Shown here: positions 1-47,343 of the stretch, one piece after another
How positions within the stretch are numbered: the first letter of the stretch is position 1
How the letters are laid out: each line of letters starts with the position of its first letter
Virus record (IMG/VR): IMGVR_UViG_3300005733_000036
Coordinates: 1-47,343 of that record
DNA: 47,343 nt
From: a virus
Direction: 5' to 3' (one strand)
Notes under the pieces: generated by a model
Database searches by the model: none
What the model was told of the DNA's origin: nothing
What the model saw: the letters and a program-made list of their open reading frames with translations, nothing else
Position numbers and translations under genes: made by a program

Positions 1-993
1 TTACATAAAGCGGGCTACGGACTGGCTAACCTTGAACTGAACGTGCCGCTAGATGGAAATCAGGTGCACCGAATGGCGTCGGTTTCCAAGCAATTTACTG
101 CCATGGCCGTATTGCTGTTGGTGGAACAGGGCAAAATTGATCTTGACCAGGACATTCATACCTATTTACCTGCATTGCGAGACTACGGCCATACCGTAAC
201 CGTCCGTCAAATGTTAGGTCATACCTCTGGTATGGGCGACTATGATCTTATCGCTGATTCGTATGAAGGCAGCAAAACAGAAAACAATACTGGGTTAAAA
301 TCTGCCGCAGGTGGCGATTTTCGTTTAGGTAATGAAGACTACCTTACCATCATGGAATTTTATGATGTGGTAAAGCGAGTACCACTAGCCATGCCACCAG
401 ACCAGAAATTCCAGTACAGCAATCTTGCCTACTTCTTACTGTCTATGCTTGTTGAAGAGGTTTCAGGACAGACACTTCGTGAGTTTAGCCATCAATATAT
501 CTTCAAACCACTCAACATGAAACACACCTTCTTTAGCGATAATCCTGTGGAAATTGTTAAAAACCGGGCCTATGGCTACAAGCAACTCGATAATGGTAGC
601 TATGTTACTGATATGACGAATTTATTTTGGGTTGGAGATGGTGGCTTACACTCTAATTTAGATGATTTGTTGCGATGGAGTGATAATTTTCTGCAGCTGA
701 AAATTGGTAAATCACCCCAGGCATTGATCGACATCATGAATACGCCGAACAGTCAGCAGCAAGCCGGAGAAGGGGTCTTTTACGGTAATGGGCAGTTTAT
801 CCATACGTTCAAAGGTTATCAGGCATACTCACATTCAGGAGGGTGGTTAGGCACCGCTACCTATTTCGCGAGATATCCCGAATTGGAGCTATCTTTTGCC
901 ATGATGTGCAACGATATTTCTAATGACCAAGTCTTCGAGGCGTTTAATGAGGTTCGCGAAGCTGTGTTTAATACCATTACCAACACTGAATAG
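1..993 (+). CDS. Serine beta-lactamase-family hydrolase (5' end missing)
   Basis: The frame is open from the first base, so the true start lies upstream. The protein shows the three motifs of the class C beta-lactamase/penicillin-binding fold (Pfam Beta-lactamase): SVSK, with the nucleophile Ser near visible residue 27 and its Lys three residues on, YSN near 139, and HSGG near 278. The opening GYGLANLELN is typical of exported serine hydrolases or esterases whose signal peptide lies further upstream. It acts on beta-lactam-like amides, peptides or esters; the substrate cannot be told. This is a host gene outside the prophage, ending 140 bp before the tRNA. Confidence 0.9.
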   Translation, partial: LHKAGYGLANLELNVPLDGNQVHRMASVSKQFTAMAVLLLVEQGKIDLDQDIHTYLPALRDYGHTVTVRQMLGHTSGMGDYDLIADSYEGSKTENNTGLKSAAGGDFRLGNEDYLTIMEFYDVVKRVPLAMPPDQKFQYSNLAYFLLSMLVEEVSGQTLREFSHQYIFKPLNMKHTFFSDNPVEIVKNRAYGYKQLDNGSYVTDMTNLFWVGDGGLHSNLDDLLRWSDNFLQLKIGKSPQALIDIMNTPNSQQQAGEGVFYGNGQFIHTFKGYQAYSHSGGWLGTATYFARYPELELSFAMMCNDISNDQVFEAFNEVREAVFNTITNTE

Positions 994-1133: not shown

Positions 1134-1210
1134 CGGTGTGTAGCGCAGCCTGGTAGCGCACTGTCATGGGGTGTCAGGGGTCGGAGGTTCAAATCCTCTC
1201 ACACCGACCA
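1134..1210 (+). tRNA. tRNA-Pro (anticodon GGG)
   Basis: The 77-nt cloverleaf has acceptor strands CGGTGTG and CACACCG followed by encoded CCA. The D arm contains AGCGCAGCCTGGTAGCGC and the T arm GGAGGTTCAAATCCTC. The anticodon stem CTGTC/GTCAG encloses loop ATGGGGT, with anticodon GGG. The same U-U mismatch in the anticodon stem is present in E. coli proL, from memory. The prophage lies immediately 3' and supplies the 3' part of the gene, so the tRNA stays functional. Confidence 0.95.
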
Positions 1211-3001: not shown

Positions 3002-3145
3002 TCACCACCCCGTAAAAGTAATTGTGAAAAATGAAAGCAGCCACAAAATTAACTCAATGACCGCCCAGCCTAATATTCCGATTGCAGAAAACAACAGAAA
3101 AAAGTCAAACTTAGTTTCAGGGAAAATCTTTCCTATTGGCCCCAC
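3002..3145 (-). CDS. Small membrane protein, 47 aa
   Basis: A GTG start at 3145 lies inside the last codons of the upstream coiled-coil gene, with SD-like GGGGGTGAG just before it. The product opens MGPIGKIFPETKFD, then a long hydrophobic stretch with one or two membrane segments (FFLLFSAIGILGWAVIELI and LWLLSFF). It ends immediately before xis. Overlap at both ends and a clean hydrophobic profile support a real gene; the function is unknown. Confidence 0.6.
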   Translation of the reverse strand: MGPIGKIFPETKFDFFLLFSAIGILGWAVIELILWLLSFFTITFTGW

Positions 3146-3582
3146 CGCTCACCCCCGTTTAGTTGTTGGCGTAGTTGTTTTGATTCTTCTAGCTCAAATT
3201 GCTCAAAGTATTCATCGCAGTTACACTCCACAACGTAGGTTTCTCCAATTGGCTCACACCCGCAATCAATCTTTTCGTAGATTTCATCAATAAGCCTGTC
3301 AACAATAAATTGTCTGTCTATTGAAACTGTTCGTGAGTCACCATTCCCGGGATGAACAAATCTATAAGTAGAAAGCTCATCCCACTTCCGCTCAACTTCT
3401 GCTATGCGCTGAATTAAACGCTGGTTGCGCTCCTGCTCCTCAATTAACAGTAACTGCGTTTCACCTAGCTGCTTTTCAGCCTGCTCAAGCTCCGCAAGCC
3501 TTTTCCCAGCTTCTTCAAATTCTTCATCAATCATTCGCATTGAATTGATTTCTCTAAGTTGCATTTTTATAGACTCATCCAT
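3133..3582 (-). CDS. Coiled-coil early protein with C-terminal QLRQQLNGG tail
   Basis: About 149 residues. The N-terminal half is a continuous Glu/Lys/Gln-rich coiled coil (RLAELEQAEKQLGETQLLL). The second half has closely spaced cysteines (CGCEP and CNCDE) that may bind metal. The C-terminus SKQLRQQLNGG repeats that of the upstream neighbour, encoded by a 27-bp direct repeat (3153-3179 and 3589-3615). The start is ATG at 3582 with SD-like GGCGAG. Such leftward-arm proteins are usually non-essential; no function is assigned. Confidence 0.7.
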   Translation of the reverse strand: MDESIKMQLREINSMRMIDEEFEEAGKRLAELEQAEKQLGETQLLLIEEQERNQRLIQRIAEVERKWDELSTYRFVHPGNGDSRTVSIDRQFIVDRLIDEIYEKIDCGCEPIGETYVVECNCDEYFEQFELEESKQLRQQLNGGERWGQ

Positions 3583-4030
3583 CACTCGCCCCGTTTAGTT
3601 GTTGGCGTAGTTGTTCATTATCACGCTCGTTAAATGTAGCTCTACCATACTCACACATGCAGCACCTACTGCGTGGCGAAACCTCATGCACTAACGTTCC
3701 ACATTCGTAACATCGGGTTAGTGTCATTGAGTCCTTTAAATATTGATACTTTTTCTGCCAATTTTCATAAGCAACTTCCCGCCCCCGCTCAACTTCCGCT
3801 ATGCGTTTTTCTGCGGCTTCGGCGCGTTTAACGCTGTTTTTAACAAGATTTGCTAAGCTTGAATTCTCTCTATCGAGCGCCTCTTTGTCAGATTTCAGCT
3901 CTGCAATGCGCTCCTGTAATCCTTCGTAATTACACTCTGGCAATGCCTTAACGAGCAATAGCGCGTTTTCTTGCTCAAGTTCAGCAATCCGCTCACGCTG
4001 CTCGTTGATGATTTTGTTTAGGTCGCTCAT
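3575..4030 (-). CDS. Coiled-coil protein with zinc-ribbon-like cysteines
   Basis: 151 residues. Residues 1-90 form a long heptad coiled coil (RIAELEQENALLL, RIAELKSDKEALDREN). Then comes a CYECG...CCMC zinc-ribbon-like segment near 108-128, and the shared tail NEQLRQQLNGA. The start at 4030 has SD GGAGAA and overlaps the upstream stop as ATGA, indicating translational coupling. It is the paralogue-like partner of the next gene downstream; function unknown. Confidence 0.72.
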   Translation of the reverse strand: MSDLNKIINEQRERIAELEQENALLLVKALPECNYEGLQERIAELKSDKEALDRENSSLANLVKNSVKRAEAAEKRIAEVERGREVAYENWQKKYQYLKDSMTLTRCYECGTLVHEVSPRSRCCMCEYGRATFNERDNEQLRQQLNGASDG

Positions 4031-4337: not shown

Positions 4338-4655
4338 CTAACAGCAATGAAACGTTGAAGTATGGCTTGGCGGTTTAAATGCCAGTGCCGCATTCCAGTG
4401 GGCCGGGCTTGGTTCTGGTTTTATTCTTTTTCGGCCAGCCTTGGTTGGCTCGCCTATAGCAACAACTTTCACCTTTCTTCCCGGTAACGGGGTTTCCTCA
4501 GTTTTATAGCGCTGGGAGTTTCGCAGTCTCAGTAGAACACCACTGGCATAACGCGGGTTAAATCCCATAGCCTTTGAGAGCTCGCCAGCTGTCCACCAAC
4601 CGCCGCGTTTAAGCATAAGCATCGCTGCTTGATAGTTTTTATTGATGGATTCCAT
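4338..4655 (-). CDS. Winged-helix-like phage protein, paralogue of the 13356 gene
   Basis: 105 residues. Residues 8-60 read as a winged helix (LMLKRGGWWTAGELSKAMGF, then YASGVLLRLRNS), followed by KTEETPLPGRKVKVVAI. The same architecture and nearly identical TEETPLPGRK stretch occur in the gene at 13356-13616 on the other arm and opposite strand. The start codon shares one base with the RdgC stop (TAATG). Probably DNA-binding; the target is unknown. Confidence 0.72.
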   Translation of the reverse strand: MESINKNYQAAMLMLKRGGWWTAGELSKAMGFNPRYASGVLLRLRNSQRYKTEETPLPGRKVKVVAIGEPTKAGRKRIKPEPSPAHWNAALAFKPPSHTSTFHCC

Positions 4656-5836
4656 TACGCTACCCCCTCAACTGGCGGCACCAGCACTACACGAGCTCCG
4701 TTAAAGCCGGGTGGACTTACAATCCCATCCACTTCCATTTGCTCGATAATACGAGCGGCCCGGTTGTAACCTATAAGGAATTTCCGCTGTATGGCTGATG
4801 CTGAGGCGCGTCGCGTTTTGGTGACAAATGCTCTGGCTTCTGTATATAAAATATCGAAACCTTGCTCATCAAAGAATGGGTTGCTTTCCTGCTCATTAGT
4901 ATGAAACTCCTGTTTAGCTTGCTCAGCATGGCGAGCAGGCACCTCTGATTCCTCATTAAGCTTCAATTCTTGCTTAATGTAACCAGCGAACTGAACCAAA
5001 AGGCTAACGCCCAATACCACATCGGCATCAAACTTAGCGGCTACCTGGTCTTTTGGAATATCGGCGTTTTCTTCAATCACCCGATCGGTGAACTTAATGC
5101 GCTTCAGTGAACCGTCATTGTCGAATACCGCGGTAAATGCTTCGTCGTACTCGATGCCGACCTTCTGGACCAACTTGCCGGCGGACAGGTGCTGCTGAAT
5201 TTCATCGCTATCAAGCGCGGTGTTTTTGGCTTTGATAGTACTGCCGGTTTCATCAGTGGCTTTTAAGTCTGCCTCTTCCAGTAATTCAATCTTGGCAGGG
5301 ACTTCATCAGTTAACCAGCGCGTTAACTCCATGCTTGTGTTGTGGCGAACCATGGGCACAACTGGCAGGCTGCCAAGTGTTTTGCGCAGCATGGCAAGGA
5401 ATGCTTCAGCGGCTGAATCACTGGCCGCATTAACGATTACCAGGTTGCTTTCAGGAATGATGGTGCCGTAAGTGTAGGAATGGTCAGTAAACGCCTGCGG
5501 GAGTAGGCGAGTAATGATTTCCTGTTTTAAGTCAGACTGCGCTTTTTTGCCTACCGGCGATCCAGTTTCGGCGTCAATGGCTTCAACCTTTTCGCTGAGC
5601 TCGCGATTAATCACGCGTGAGGGTAGTAGGCGTTCTTCTTTTTTCAGTGCAACAGTGTAAAAACCGTTAGCCACATGACACAGAACAGAACCTTGCGGTA
5701 CCGGTGAAGCCCAGCCCATGGTTGAAGTTTCCATGCTTCCGCATGGGCGAAAGGCTAATTCAGCTAACTGGCTTTCGATTTCAGCCAGGTTAACTGAGGC
5801 TGTCAGGTTGTAAAATTTAGTGTTCTTGAAAAGCAT
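4655..5836 (-). CDS. rdgC: RdgC-FtsK gamma fusion, recombination-modulating protein
   Basis: 393 residues in two domains. Residues 1-295 match RdgC along their length ([74 protein letters not shown]). RdgC is a DNA-binding ring that limits RecA filament formation. Residues about 325-386 match the FtsK gamma winged helix ([20 protein letters not shown], then [15 protein letters not shown]), which in FtsK reads KOPS and contacts XerD. A loose Glu-rich linker joins them. Cellular RdgC is about 300 residues and lacks the gamma domain. It is coupled on both sides by one-base TAATG overlaps. Confidence 0.9.
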
Positions 5837-10871: not shown

Positions 10872-11030
10872 GTGAAGTTTAAACACTGCAAAGATGAGAA
10901 GCGATTAGCTTTAAGAAAAAAGAGCGTCAAAAGAATGCACCGGCCTCATAAATTTGAGCAGATGTTAAAGGGTCGGAAAAAAGTGGATGGGCTCATGTCT
11001 CGAATTGGCTGTTCAATTGATGGTATTTAG
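10872..11030 (+). CDS. Small basic protein, 52 aa
   Basis: GTG 10872 follows AGGAG by 6 nt. The product is very Lys/Arg-rich (KRLALRKKSVKRMHRPHK) and could bind nucleic acid. It is the last reading frame before the long structured RNA, which begins right after its stop codon. Function unknown. Confidence 0.58.
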   Translation: MKFKHCKDEKRLALRKKSVKRMHRPHKFEQMLKGRKKVDGLMSRIGCSIDGI

Positions 11031-11770
11031 TAGCGTCTGGTATATGCGTAGCCCAGTTGTAACGCTTCATGTGTCCTCATGCCTGTAGTTCCCGGACAAC
11101 TGAATCGGCTGAATATACAAGCCAGAGATAACAGGTTCTCTTACAGCTGGTAGCCACGCCAGCGGCGACAAAGCACCAAACACTTACATGAGTGCGTTTT
11201 GGAAAGACGGTTAGCACATTTCTTGTCTGTCGTTGGTTCGGCGTGTTAGCCGTCTTTATCAAAGCGTTATGCGCTAAAGAGTGCGGTAACGGTAAGCAAT
11301 AGGGCTTATTCATCCGTGTTGGCGCCAAGGTGACGACCATGGCCGCGCCTACTGCGAAAGTGTAGGACGTTTTGGGAAGGCTTTACTACTTGCCCGTAAT
11401 TCCCATTCACATTCTTAGAGTGTGACTGGTAAGGGTGAAGCTTTCACCAAAGCGTTACAACCCCGAATAAAACTGGGCGTTATAGCCGTAGGTTGGGCGC
11501 TTTCCCGAGTCTCTGAAAAATGAGAGCCAGTATGTACCGCTGGTAGGGCATCAGACCAAAAGGGCATCGGTAAGGCAGTTAACTAGCAAGCGGAGGTTAA
11601 CACCGGTTATAAGCGGCCAGAGGCGACACGAGAGACTGAGCTTGCAGCCAGGGCTTGCCCACCTGGACCGAACGGGCTTTAAGGTGCGCTCAGCCCCCCC
11701 AAGGGCCGAACGCAAGACAATAAAAAACCCGCTAGCCGTGGAAAGCAAATCGCGGGTTATTCATATATCG
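11031..11770 (+). ncRNA. Candidate large structured RNA, about 740 nt
   Basis: No credible ORF, but dense base-pairing potential. GTTGTAACGCTT (11056-11067) pairs perfectly with AAGCGTTACAAC (11450-11461), about 380 nt away, and is extended across a bulge by GCCCA/TGGGC (11051-11055, 11474-11478). A 15-bp helix joins 11203-11217 and 11243-11257 (two G-U pairs). TTATAGCCG (11480-11488) pairs with CGGTTATAA (11604-11612), one G-U. Nested hairpins include GGTGAA/TTCACC, CACATTC/GAGTGTG and CCAGG/CCTGG. G-U-tolerant pairing points to rightward RNA. Size and prophage setting recall GOLLD/ROOL-type giant RNAs; I cannot match either consensus. Confidence 0.7.
11726..11758 (+). terminator. Hairpin at the 3' end of the structured RNA
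   Basis: AACCCGC (11726-11732) and GCGGGTT (11752-11758) form a 7-bp stem around a 19-nt loop, followed by only a short T-rich stretch (ATTCAT). It may be an RNA 3' boundary, a processing site or a leaky terminator before the replication gene. Confidence 0.4.
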
Positions 11771-11779
11771 AGGTTAATT

Positions 11780-12598
11780 ATGACGCAAACAGCGGAAGTA
11801 ATCAAATTTGCGAGGCCAGTTGTGAAAGCAGATATAGATAAAGGTTTTGATCGCTTGGCTGGCACTCTGACAGATGCACTGGCCATCAATGAGCCTGAGT
11901 TAAACGGTAGAGAGTTTCAGTTAGTGATGGCGATCATCTCTAAGACTTACCGTTATCACAAGCCTGTAGACTGGATTGCCAGATGCCAACTTGAAGAAAT
12001 CACCGGTATTTCTGGCTGCAATATTTCGACAGTTCTTAAAAGTCTAAAAGCGAAAAGAGTTGTTATTGCGGAAGGTCGAAAAATAGGCATAAACAAGGTT
12101 GTTTCTGACTGGTGTAAGTTGGATAAGAAACAATCAAATGTTTCAAATTCAAAACCTAGTAAAAATGTTTCGGATTCAAAACAAGATGTTTCGGATTCAA
12201 AACAAGATGTTTCGGATTCAAAACCTCAGAGTTTCAATTCTGACCCCCACAATAGAAAGACTACCAAACAAAAGACTACTAAACAGAAGATCAGGGAGAG
12301 TTCTGCAAAAAAAACTGCAATCAATTTGCCTGAACATATTCCACGCAAAGCACTCGAGGATTTTATTGCCAACCGGGCAAAACTTAAAAAACCTATGACG
12401 GATAGAGCCGTCGAGCTTCTCATTGACAAACTAACCACCCTGCATACCCAAGGCCATAACCTTACGGAGTTACTTAACGAAGCAATCATGAACGGCTGGC
12501 AGTCTGTTTACCCTGGCAAAACTAAGCAGTCAGCCAGCAGAGCCAGACCTGAAAACTTCAGCAGTAAAGACTACGGCAACGATCTGGTGAGGTTTTAA
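11780..12598 (+). CDS. O: Lambda O-like replication initiator
   Basis: 272 residues. The N-terminal domain (about residues 20-110: LNGREFQLVMAIISKTYRY, RCQLEEITGISG, STVLKSLKAKRVV) matches the phage replication protein O winged helix. A Ser/Lys/Asp repeat stretch follows, coded by DNA iterons, then a helical C-terminus expected to recruit the loader and DnaB. ATG 11780 follows GAGG by 6 nt; codons upstream in frame belong to the structured RNA. The helicase loader is next. Confidence 0.88.
   Translation: MTQTAEVIKFARPVVKADIDKGFDRLAGTLTDALAINEPELNGREFQLVMAIISKTYRYHKPVDWIARCQLEEITGISGCNISTVLKSLKAKRVVIAEGRKIGINKVVSDWCKLDKKQSNVSNSKPSKNVSDSKQDVSDSKQDVSDSKPQSFNSDPHNRKTTKQKTTKQKIRESSAKKTAINLPEHIPRKALEDFIANRAKLKKPMTDRAVELLIDKLTTLHTQGHNLTELLNEAIMNGWQSVYPGKTKQSASRARPENFSSKDYGNDLVRF
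12138..12224 (+). repeat. ori: Replication-origin iterons inside the O gene
   Basis: Four 18-bp direct repeats at 12138, 12165, 12186 and 12207. The last three are identical (ATGTTTCGGATTCAAAAC) and spaced 21 bp, two helical turns; the first differs by two bases. A-rich DNA follows. Lambda carries its O-binding iterons at the same place within O. They encode NVSDSKQD-type peptide repeats. Confidence 0.8.
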
Positions 12599-14517: not shown

Positions 14518-14687
14518 GCAACCCACAACCAACCAACTGGATCCGCCCGCCCTACGCAAAGGAAGAAAGCGCCAGCGCCAAGATGAAGAAGCGTAAGGAA
14601 GCTCTGGACGCCGCAGAAGAGCGGGCCCATAAACAGCCAGCCAATATCTTTGAGGACTTTGAACAGATGTTTAAGGAGTTGTCTTGA
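14514..14687 (+). CDS. Small charged protein, 57 aa
   Basis: GTG start overlaps the previous stop (GTGA). The product is mostly helical and charged (AKMKKRKEALDAAEERAHK). Its 3' end carries the AAGGAG that serves the next gene, whose TTG start overlaps this stop (TTGA). Function unknown. Confidence 0.62.
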   Translation: MSNPQPTNWIRPPYAKEESASAKMKKRKEALDAAEERAHKQPANIFEDFEQMFKELS

Positions 14688-15907
14688 AATCAGTGGCCCT
14701 GGCAATTAATGACACGAGCGTTAAGCAATCCGCTTTAGATGGCGAGATTGGTGAGGTTCGTGACATTAAAAAGCCTATTTCTTTGCGGTTTCACAAATCC
14801 AGAGAAAAGGCGACATGGTGTTATTTGCATTACATCAAAGGCCGGGTGCAACGAACTAGAATAGGATACTGGCCCGCGCTGAGAACCAAAGAGGCGTTGG
14901 CGCTGCTTCCTGCCATCATTGAACAAATAGGGCGCGGTGATGATGTTCAGGCCAGCCAGTTTAATACAGTGGGTGATCTGCTTAGTTGGTATGCAGTCAG
15001 GATAGATCAGGAAGTATTAAAAAGTGATAGCCGGCGCAAAGGGGTATTAAGTGCAATTAATAAGCACCTACGCCCCCGCCTTGAAAATATCAAGATCATC
15101 AATTTGAAGAAGTCGGTAATTGATGAGAAGTTAATATTGCCCTTACAAAACGATGATCTTAAACCATCAAGTATCCGTCAGTACTTTGCCATTTTAAAGC
15201 GTGTGTTCACTAGTGCTCATGAGCTCGGCGCCATTACGGTTAACCCAATGGCCAGTATGAAATTCAGGGACCACGTTCAGCGGCGTATAGAGCCAAAGGC
15301 CGGTCGAATTTTAGTCTCTGATGTTCACCGAGTGCTTAAGCAGATAGGCGAGTTGTCAGGCGTGATTCATGTGATGCTGCTTATGATGCTGATGTTTGGT
15401 ACCCGTATCGGCGAAACCAGGCAGTTGCGGTGGCGCCACGTCGATTTTGAAGCACGGCGCTTAACTATCCCTGAGCAGATAACTAAGACTGGTTCAGTTC
15501 ACATACTCCCGCTCACCGATCACGCCATTGCGCTCCTGAAGAATTACCGGGCCCAGTGCCCTGGTGAATATCTGTTTGGCAATAATGAGCCATGCTCAGA
15601 AAGTCAGGCGGACAAGTTGGTGCGAACTGCATCTGGCAGGAAGTGGTCAGCTCATGATTTACGAAAGGCGGCCCGCAGTGCCTGGGCAACGATAGGGATT
15701 GATTACTGGGTATCAGAGCGCCTGTTAAACCATAAACAAAAAGGGTTGGATTTGGTGTACATCAAAGCTGACTCGATGGACGTAAAACGGGCAGCACTTG
15801 AGCAATATCACACATGGCTATTTGGTGGTTCCGCGACAAGTCATATACAAGTCATGGAGAAATCTAGCGAACCTGAAAACACAAGCATATTCAACAAGGT
15901 GGCGTAA
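14684..15907 (+). CDS. Second full-length tyrosine recombinase
   Basis: 407 residues with all catalytic signatures: Arg in FGTRIGETRQL (near 239), H-x-x-R in HDLRKAARSAW (near 323), the LLNHKQKG box, and the nucleophile Tyr in LVYIKAD (near 358). The N-terminal part has a DUF4102-like arm-binding look, followed by a SAM-like core-binding domain. Start TTG 14684, 5 nt after AAGGAG. It lies in the replication/nin region, far from attL/attR, and unlike the attL integrase it has an intact box I. It may resolve dimers, act on another att site, or be the real integrase of an ancestor. Confidence 0.92.
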   Translation: MKSVALAINDTSVKQSALDGEIGEVRDIKKPISLRFHKSREKATWCYLHYIKGRVQRTRIGYWPALRTKEALALLPAIIEQIGRGDDVQASQFNTVGDLLSWYAVRIDQEVLKSDSRRKGVLSAINKHLRPRLENIKIINLKKSVIDEKLILPLQNDDLKPSSIRQYFAILKRVFTSAHELGAITVNPMASMKFRDHVQRRIEPKAGRILVSDVHRVLKQIGELSGVIHVMLLMMLMFGTRIGETRQLRWRHVDFEARRLTIPEQITKTGSVHILPLTDHAIALLKNYRAQCPGEYLFGNNEPCSESQADKLVRTASGRKWSAHDLRKAARSAWATIGIDYWVSERLLNHKQKGLDLVYIKADSMDVKRAALEQYHTWLFGGSATSHIQVMEKSSEPENTSIFNKVA

Positions 15908-46119: not shown

Positions 46120-47343
46120 GGCTCTACCCCATAAACGGGGGATCAGCATTCATCTTGTTCGGTTAATTATTCCATCCCATCCACAATGGGTCATTACTCT
46201 TATTCTGTAATTCTCGAAGTTTCTAAAACCATACGCTCTTCTCGATATCATTTCCATTTTGTTGTGGAAGCCTTCAGTGATGCCGTTATTTCGGGTGAAC
46301 CGCCACATCGCAACAATTGGTTCTAACCAGGATGTGAGTGTTTTAGCCAGTGCGTTAAGCGGACTATGTTGGAGCTTTTCAATTAACGATAAGAACTTAG
46401 GAAGCTTTCTGGCCATTCGCTTTTCATTCACTGTCTTTAACAATATGTAGCGCATGAGCTCTTGTTTGATGCCGTACATTGCTCGAAGTACCGGGTAATC
46501 TTTTAGGTAAGCCATTAAGTTCGCCAGGTTGTCGTTGCTCAAGCGCCACTGATGTCGCCGCATTAAACTTAATAAACCTCGGTTACGTCTCTCCTCAGGA
46601 TGATGCTGTTGCCAGGCTTTTAAAAAGTGATGGTTGATAAGCCTGACCACGTGAAAGCGGTCAGCCACTATCAATGCATTGGGGAAGTAACGCTTCGCGA
46701 TATTGCGATACGTTTCTGATAAATCCATCGCAATTAGCGTGACGTTCTCCTTACCAGGTAAACGCCGCAGGTACTGGCGTAAACTGAGCTCTGAACGTCC
46801 CAGCTTTACGTCGAATACATTGTGGTTCTTCAAATCCACAAAGGTAGTGGCATAGCCCTTTTTACGCGTAAAGAAATGCTCATCTATCCCCAACATCTGT
46901 GGGCAAGGACGACTCACAATCTCTTTGTATTTTTGATTGATGTGCGACTGATACCACCGCTCTACTGTCGTCGCACTAATCCTGTATATGCGTGACAACT
47001 TGCGCTGCGTCACGCCACCATGATGGGCTTCAAATACTTCCAGGCGATAACACTCAGAGGCCCGGTAACGAGGACGGATACCGACAAAAGGATGCCTGAA
47101 ATAGCGATTACAGGCTTGACAATGATACTTCGGCACCTTGAGGTGCAACGTCAGGACCTGATTGCCTTGTCGGGTATGTTTTACCGTTCGATGATGTGTC
47201 GCTTTAACCCTTAAGTGCCTGGCATTGCAGTGTTTACATGCTGGTCTGGTACTCGGCTTAGCCCAGACCTCAATGTGGTCGTTACGATTAATCTGTTCAA
47301 TTTCTAACTCAGTTATGCCTAAAATGGCTCCTGCGTGGGACAT
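46120..47343 (-). mobile_element. ISL3-family insertion sequence (one end in the window)
   Basis: The DNA from GGCTCTACCCCATAAACGGGG (46120) inward has the GGCTCT-type terminal inverted repeat expected for ISL3 elements, and the transposase follows. The other end lies beyond the window, so the 8-bp target duplication cannot be checked. Inserted about 40 bp beyond attR, in host DNA. Confidence 0.82.
46150..47343 (-). CDS. ISL3-family transposase
   Basis: 397 residues, apparently complete with ATG at the last bases of the window. N-terminal zinc-binding domain (CKHCNARHLRVK, YHCQACNRYFRHP), HTH (VTQRKLSRIYRISATTVERWY), and a DDE domain with GIDEHFFTRKKGY, IAMDLSETYRNIAKRYFP and VADRFHVVRLIN, then a late Glu in NNGITEGFHNKMEM. 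Cuts and rejoins the IS ends. Confidence 0.95.
   Translation of the reverse strand: MSHAGAILGITELEIEQINRNDHIEVWAKPSTRPACKHCNARHLRVKATHHRTVKHTRQGNQVLTLHLKVPKYHCQACNRYFRHPFVGIRPRYRASECYRLEVFEAHHGGVTQRKLSRIYRISATTVERWYQSHINQKYKEIVSRPCPQMLGIDEHFFTRKKGYATTFVDLKNHNVFDVKLGRSELSLRQYLRRLPGKENVTLIAMDLSETYRNIAKRYFPNALIVADRFHVVRLINHHFLKAWQQHHPEERRNRGLLSLMRRHQWRLSNDNLANLMAYLKDYPVLRAMYGIKQELMRYILLKTVNEKRMARKLPKFLSLIEKLQHSPLNALAKTLTSWLEPIVAMWRFTRNNGITEGFHNKMEMISRRAYGFRNFENYRIRVMTHCGWDGIINRTR

Follow-up and report, generated by a model that had tools for sequence, protein, structure and literature searches.

What occupies the stretch of some 740 nt, devoid of any credible open reading frame, that separates the early genes of this phage from its O gene? 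The window analysed here is the whole of an IMG/VR virus record, 47,343 nt long, and the region in question is 11031–11770, the plus strand of which is read rightward. An initial annotation, made from the sequence alone, proposed that the gap encodes a large structured RNA, comparable in size and setting to giant RNAs such as GOLLD and ROOL, and perhaps a new class or an outlier. The gap itself is real, and the gene beyond it matches Pfam Phage_rep_O. We find that positions 11031–11715 very probably specify a rightward, noncoding, structured RNA of mosaic organization. As far as Rfam, keyword searches of the open-access literature and our general knowledge show, the class is undescribed; within the same literature scope (open-access keyword searches, general knowledge) the mosaic architecture, too, is without earlier description.

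Folding, coding status and homologues

The plus strand of the region has a minimum free energy of -270.2 kcal/mol, where dinucleotide shuffles give -240.0 (sd 7.4; z = -4.1; 0 of 20 shuffles as stable). The minus strand exceeds its shuffles more weakly (z = -2.3). This agrees with the rightward reading first proposed, as do the arm cassettes described below. All of the complementarities that had been named exist in the sequence; helix length by itself settled nothing, however, and so homologues were needed to decide which of the helices are real.

A blastn search for distant relatives returned one named phage, the isolated Alteromonas phage P24 (78.7% over 179 nt), in which the homologue holds the same position, ahead of the replication genes. 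When IMG/VR was scanned for exact matches to conserved parts of the RNA, it yielded the set with ‘type A’ 3' domains, including L034, from a close relative of the window phage, and a scan with the constant piece CAAAGCGTTATGCGG yielded members with other 3' ends. The working set comprises 23 loci, the window plus 22 further phage loci, P24 among them; some share long stretches, so the independent witnesses are fewer than 23. The RNAs range in size from roughly 350 to 900 nt, and their carriers are Alteromonas-type phages. Searches of plasmids and of E. coli genomes gave no homologue, scans of genome contigs with one DNA pattern and one protein query gave zero loci, and a more degenerate viral scan gave no member beyond the set already in hand.

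No open reading frame is conserved across these homologues, and a coding region was rejected on the ground that open frames are not common to them. The longest stop-free stretches (up to 117 codons) vary in frame and length from one RNA to the next; indels are not multiples of three, as with a 5-nt indel in the 3' domain; and entire arms of differing length are swapped between RNAs, which we count against coding. For these same reasons the ‘hypothetical protein’ that GenBank places over the P24 RNA (QIV64695.1; L002 1033–1371) is probably spurious.

The helices named at the outset fared differently when homologues were compared. The perfect 12-bp helix 11056–11067/11450–11461 is of unusual length (1 of 200 shuffles contains one so long), but it is not conserved, and we reject it as the long-range organizer of the fold. 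It breaks in L034, where AGUUGUAACGCU is replaced by AGUUGUACUGAA with no change in the partner strand, and it is absent from P24; its 5' strand has a better-supported partner in a local CAGUUGU/ACAACUG helix, and the conserved CAAAGCGUUA arm base supplies its 3' strand. The 15-bp helix 11203–11217/11243–11257, with two G-U pairs, is ordinary by length alone (18 of 200 shuffles), and another helix of the same length looks like chance. It is nonetheless a genuine arm, the base of which is conserved and the sequence of which is different, yet complementary, in other members. The 9-bp helix 11480–11488/11604–11612 is mismatched in L034 and overlaps a covarying helix, 11566–11571/11602–11607. The repeat GCCAGMGGCGACA is present as a pair (2 of 100 shuffles), but as a 13-nt repeat it is not kept in the homologues. 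What the initial annotation missed was the mosaic of exchangeable modules, the presence of two arm cassettes in tandem, and the nature of the last hairpin, which would be chiefly a leftward terminator, part of an oop-like unit.

Arm cassettes and other exchangeable modules

The RNA in the window is composed of the following parts.

11031–11194, plus strand: 5' domain, ‘type V’, with a local helix 11054–11060/11096–11102 (CAGUUGU/ACAACUG)
11195–11266, plus strand: arm cassette 1; CGUUUUG (11195–11201) pairs with CAAAGCG (11260–11266), and helix 11203–11217/11243–11257 continues the stem
11284–11374, plus strand: linker module X, CGGUAACGGUAAGCAAUAGGGCUUAUUC...GUGUAGG
11368–11454, plus strand: arm cassette 2; CGUUUUG (11368–11374) pairs with CAAAGCG (11448–11454), with an AAGGCUU/AAGCUUU arm
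11449–11503, plus strand: junction element; AAAGCG (11449–11454) and CGCUUU (11498–11503) flank a sub-domain
11496–11680, plus strand: 3' domain, type A, with helices 11566–11571/11602–11607, 11578–11584/11595–11601 and 11636–11638/11645–11647
11648–11652/11662–11666 with 11657–11660/11674–11677, plus strand: putative H-type pseudoknot in the 3' domain, with compensatory changes read by eye
11686–11713, plus strand: 3' hairpin, GCG.UC.GCCC/GGGC.GA.CGC; P24 types have an unrelated but pairing AACA.CACA/UGUG.UGUU (by eye)

Related phages contain the same pieces in different orders. The modules are of several kinds—5' domains (at least five types), arm cassettes, linkers and 3' domains—and they recur in varied combinations. 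Jumps in identity along one and the same RNA indicate, on sequence comparison, exchange of modules between phages. Thus 11031–11269 is shared, at 90.8% identity, with L034 only, and linker X and cassette 2, some 190 nt together, are absent from L034. Linker X itself is 95.6–97.8% identical to its counterparts in L004, L080, L081 and L107, despite differing adjacent modules.

Every arm stands on the constant base CGUUUUG...CAAAGCG; CGUUU(U/C)G is present in all 23 RNAs, with a CAAAGCG-type sequence 36–86 nt further on. Between the two base strands the sequences fall into 13 clusters, each of which folds as a long arm on the base. For 12 of the 13, the best partner of the 5' strand among all 13 clusters is its own 3' strand, and the mean duplex energy of the true partners is -15.6 kcal/mol, compared with -7.3 when partners are permuted (0 of 100,000 permutations as good). 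All 13 cassettes are more stable on the plus strand than on its complement when the base is included, and 11 of 13 when it is not, because of G-U pairs, which make up 53 of 387 pairs. The two cassettes in the window, which lie in tandem, have energies of -32.0 (plus) versus -13.6 (minus) kcal/mol for cassette 1, and -40.6 versus -21.9 for cassette 2. The pattern is one of compensatory change at the scale of the whole helix, and it indicates selection on the plus-strand RNA. Individual arms travel: that of P24 recurs in L011, L012, L080, L081 and L127 amid differing 5' domains and 3' ends, and that of L008 recurs in L009, L080, L104, L107 and L113.

In most relatives, the space between AAAGCG and CGCUUU is taken by a hairpin, Z (GAUUNNN/NNNRGUC). 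Covariation is present in the homologues, and hairpin Z is one example: 99% of cells are paired; three pairs carry changes in both strands, which 3 of 500 shuffles attain; the covariation score is equalled by no shuffle among the 500; and the slid controls all fall far short. Two of the outcomes that the initial annotation had named as refuting it, an absence of covariation and an ORF conserved across homologues, are therefore not borne out. AAAGCG could in principle pair with either CGUUUUG or CGCUUU; the CGCUUU pairing is the less stable in 26 of 26 cases, by 1.8–7.8 kcal/mol. A switch by exchange of the AAAGCG strand is possible, but the modelled energies do not favour it.

Some of the pairings in the 5' and 3' domains are read by eye. 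The CAGUUGU/ACAACUG helix of the 5' domain becomes CUGAUUGU/ACAAUCAG in P24 and CUGAAUGU/ACAUUCAG in L079, with both strands changed and pairing kept (by eye). Within the 3' domain, AUCGGU/ACCGAU in the window is ACCGGU/ACCGGU in L034, and a CUG/CAG helix is there CAG/CUG. The two stems of the pseudoknot are CCAGG/CCUGG with GCCC/GGGC in the window, CCAAG/CUUGG with ACCC/GGGU in P24, and GUAGGUG/CACCUAC with GGCUC/GAGCC in L034. These compensatory changes in the 3' domain come from a by-eye reading of few distinct sequences. A possible alternative partner for the ACCC strand is a GGGU-type sequence near 11547. The type A domain probably ends in a pseudoknot. Type A members are 79–84% identical over 11496–11676, and a covariance model of the 3' domain built with L034 left out finds L034 at 136 bits (E=1e-31). 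RNAalifold gave a covariation of -0.03 for this domain, the type A set being too similar and L034 misaligned at the pseudoknot. Other members have 3' types B, C or D in place of type A; in type B, a hairpin of about 30 nt stands in for the entire domain.

Gene context and the predicted leftward unit before O

In each of the 23 loci the gene that opens the replication operon, whichever it is, has a copy of the RNA immediately before it. The modules that follow differ. Some begin with O; some have a gene for 60 or 61 aa, then one for a protein of about 294 aa, then a DnaB helicase where the contig extends; and in others T5orf172 or HNH genes come first, with an HTH_36 protein after them. (The L136 contig ends inside its first gene.) The T5orf172 (GIY-YIG-like) and HNH genes that lie between the RNA and the replication gene (L079 942–1661, L136 12948–13436, L113 5291–5653) are possibly homing endonucleases, and could promote exchange of modules.

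How is the RNA transcribed? A sigma70 scan of the window and of P24 found no rightward promoter candidate ahead of it, and at 10995–11055 of the window there is no promoter sequence common to the RNA starts, though the upstream genes differ between phages. Some members, P24 included, have a rightward terminator directly 5' of the RNA; in others it is a AACCCTGCC...GGGTTTTT hairpin. Since no rightward promoter was found in the interval from the upstream genes to the RNA, and since terminators directly precede it in several members, we infer that the RNA is part of a rightward early (pR-type) transcript and not a free-standing gene.

Second copies occur. L077 has two modular RNAs in tandem (2165–2600 and 3040–3610), between which lie a terminator and two small ORFs, of 78 and 59 aa; the second copy, which is the upstream one, runs straight into the leader of a small ORF with no intervening terminator. 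L010 has a second copy that is truncated. Small ORFs also interrupt the modular RNA, or lie in the interval from its 3' hairpin to the leftward terminator, at L010 1785–2005, L010 3150–3310 and L126 12500–12840 (reverse-complement coordinates).

Between the RNA and O there lies a further, distinct unit, facing the other way.

11720–11756 (hairpin 11728–11756), minus strand: terminator-type hairpin, tO-like, with A6 on its plus-strand side and a UUAUUC tail downstream
11777–11805, minus strand: predicted sigma70-like promoter, pO-like (scan match); -35 TTGATT at 11805–11800, 17 nt, -10 CATAAT at 11782–11777; overlaps the O start codon
11780–12598, plus strand: replication protein O (Pfam Phage_rep_O, PF04492, E=1.1e-22), the context gene

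The hairpin has an A-run of 5–7 upstream and a T-run of 2–4 downstream in the 22 members scored, and 11718–11756 is about 92% identical to several members. Judged by these runs, it would be a strong leftward terminator and a weak rightward one. In all 23 loci the pattern TTGNNN-17-CATA(A/C)T lies, in fixed register, over the codon at which the first gene starts, and the N-termini encoded beneath it are unrelated: MTQTAEVIKF, MSELTKFNNP, MMQIENINNS, MSEYKKYSKP, MSDLITYYKI and MNQEQKKYKP. The leftward transcript would start at about 11770 and be about 50 nt in length. We regard the predicted promoter and terminator as forming an oop-like unit distinct from the large RNA.

In lambda, transcription from pO begins at the start of O, runs leftward against that from pR and stops at tO (PMC3985674). 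Lambda's pO/oop/tO and the window have in common a leftward promoter at the start of the replication gene, a short leftward RNA and a terminator just upstream, all predicted here from sequence (PMC3985674). The units differ in that lambda's lies 3' of cII whereas this one lies 3' of a noncoding RNA and, unlike lambda's, is kept ahead of unrelated first genes. Nor would its transcript be antisense to a cII mRNA, as oop is: the region upstream is the noncoding RNA, and no cII-like gene was recognized there.

The phage has other features worth recording. On the minus strand, 4655–5836 encodes an RdgC-like protein (PF04381, E=7e-89) whose C-terminal part is an FtsK gamma domain (PF09397, E=4e-22); in a phage gene this pairing of domains is unusual. 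There are two tyrosine-recombinase (phage integrase family) genes, 14684–15907 on the plus strand and 1654–2781 on the minus strand, one of them near the replication genes. A beta-lactamase-family gene at the left end of the window (43–993) and an ISL3 transposase at the right (46150–47343) are probably host flank or insertion.

Known RNAs and possible mechanisms

Rfam cmscan of the window region, at the gathering threshold and at E<=10, found no family; the sole match, Trp_leader at E=6.3, corresponds to the terminator hairpin. Six related loci likewise matched no family at E<=1. The suggestion of a new class or an outlier is thus upheld, while membership of GOLLD, ROOL, OLE or HEARO is rejected for want of a covariance-model match. 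GOLLD's tRNA-island setting is missing as well: no tRNA adjoins the RNA, and the only Rfam tRNA in the window (1134–1207) is some 10 kb away.

Other RNAs of the rightward early transcript, the put elements of HK022 and the nut sites of lambda, act in cis on the polymerase, through an RNA-dependent modification that takes effect at downstream terminators; they are under about 100 nt long and are not mosaic. By analogy, the present RNA would share with them its placement in that transcript, which we infer here, and would differ in size and mosaicism.

The explanation that best accounts for the whole, and to which we would give a little short of an even chance, is a mosaic RNA of a new class, carried on the early transcript and serving as a cis leader of the replication operon. 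The order would be 5' domain, one or two arm cassettes, linkers or hairpin Z, 3' domain, leftward pO/tO-like unit and replication genes. The arms would fold co-transcriptionally at the constant junctions and, once folded, would set the passage of RNA polymerase or of mRNA into the replication genes, by processive antitermination, attenuation or mRNA processing, with opposing transcription of the pO type acting alongside. Since only helix and base would matter, the arm sequences could be swapped by recombination between phages. RNAs that act in cis are usually recognized by just such a constant place ahead of modules whose proteins belong to unrelated families, and it is on account of this consistent position that we advance the cis role as such, tentatively and as rather less than an even bet. 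The L077 copy fused to a small ORF's leader, and the occurrence of the same cassettes in different contexts, speak for the overall explanation. Against it, the related sequences represent fewer independent events than 23. The RNA is, moreover, much larger and more elaborate than one would expect of a cis leader; the second copies in L077 and L010 precede small genes that are not replication genes; homing-type ORFs (T5orf172, HNH) separate RNA from replication gene in some members; and much the same picture would be expected of a trans-acting RNA inherited by synteny.

That last point brings in a giant RNA of the GOLLD or ROOL kind, cut or terminated from the early transcript and accumulating as a free, perhaps oligomeric, scaffold. 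GOLLD itself forms a 14-mer nanocage. We think this on balance improbable, though to be taken seriously for its size, its probable pseudoknot and its resemblance to the GOLLD plan; the elaborate fold and the phage location are in keeping with it. GOLLD has a universally conserved 3' region, a less conserved 5' region and a pseudoknot (PMC12286853), and the RNA described here is likewise a large phage or prophage noncoding RNA with a variable 5' part and a putative pseudoknot; its 3' part is well conserved as type A in the window and its relatives, other members having types B, C and D. It differs in that its 3' domain is itself exchangeable and in that it has no tRNA neighbour, and the description of GOLLD in that paper (PMC12286853) includes neither arm cassettes set on constant bases nor a fixed site before replication genes. 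With ROOL it shares large size, phage origin and a complex fold, but matches no model. Phage ICP1 supplies a precedent in an abundant transcript of about 800 nt from an ORF-less stretch (PMC7567579). The likeness to this RNA and to the PLE IIR transcript, one of description, is in the similar-sized ORF-less gap and the marine gammaproteobacterial phage (PMC7567579); the ICP1 RNA is strongly transcribed and lies beside the lysis cluster, whereas the present one sits before replication genes. A free RNA, furthermore, sits poorly with a 3' end that has no strong rightward terminator (T-run of 2–4), with the replacement of the 3' domain by a 30-nt hairpin in type B, and with the strict early/replication operon position.

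The arms invite two further readings. With a constant base and 13 swapped arm clusters they resemble variable specificity parts, and might be diversifying decoys, directed for example against nucleases of the host or of rival phages, or against antisense RNAs (compare the antisense control of P4, P1 and N15). This is unlikely: the phage carries an ordinary CI-like repressor, and GGA motifs are below expectation (8 in the window against 10.7 expected, with no ANGGA), which excludes a CsrA sponge of the CsrB/CsrC type. Or the element might act as DNA, as recombination linkers or single-strand hairpins (an origin, a primosome site, attC-like sites) at the boundary of the replication module, where exchange at constant sequences, inverted repeats and a replication gene close by would all be at home. 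DNA hairpins, however, have no need of a G-U-driven strand bias that favours the plus strand in 13 of 13 cassettes, the compensatory changes lie deep within modules, and no recombinase gene directly adjoins; we regard this reading as very unlikely indeed. As for an unstructured spacer with helices due to chance, helix lengths alone are barely unusual and the 12-bp helix is not conserved, but self-complementary replaced arms, covariation and modules conserved at 95–98% make it scarcely credible.

To our knowledge, very few giant phage RNAs have been recognized, and the functions of GOLLD and ROOL are poorly understood. We suggest, tentatively and with some reserve, that this may be the first combinatorial phage RNA, in which interchangeable folded cassettes are mounted on constant helical junctions, possibly conferring phage-specific specificity. 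If so, it would be the RNA counterpart of domain shuffling in proteins. Natural variants already supply swaps of arms, linkers and 3' domains, which makes structure and function testable with existing sequences and with an isolated phage, P24 of Alteromonas macleodii. And the fixed site, with early genes on one side, replication genes on the other and a lambda-like pO unit adjoining, offers what the context of GOLLD and ROOL does not: a concrete hypothesis, namely that the RNA may control the onset of replication.
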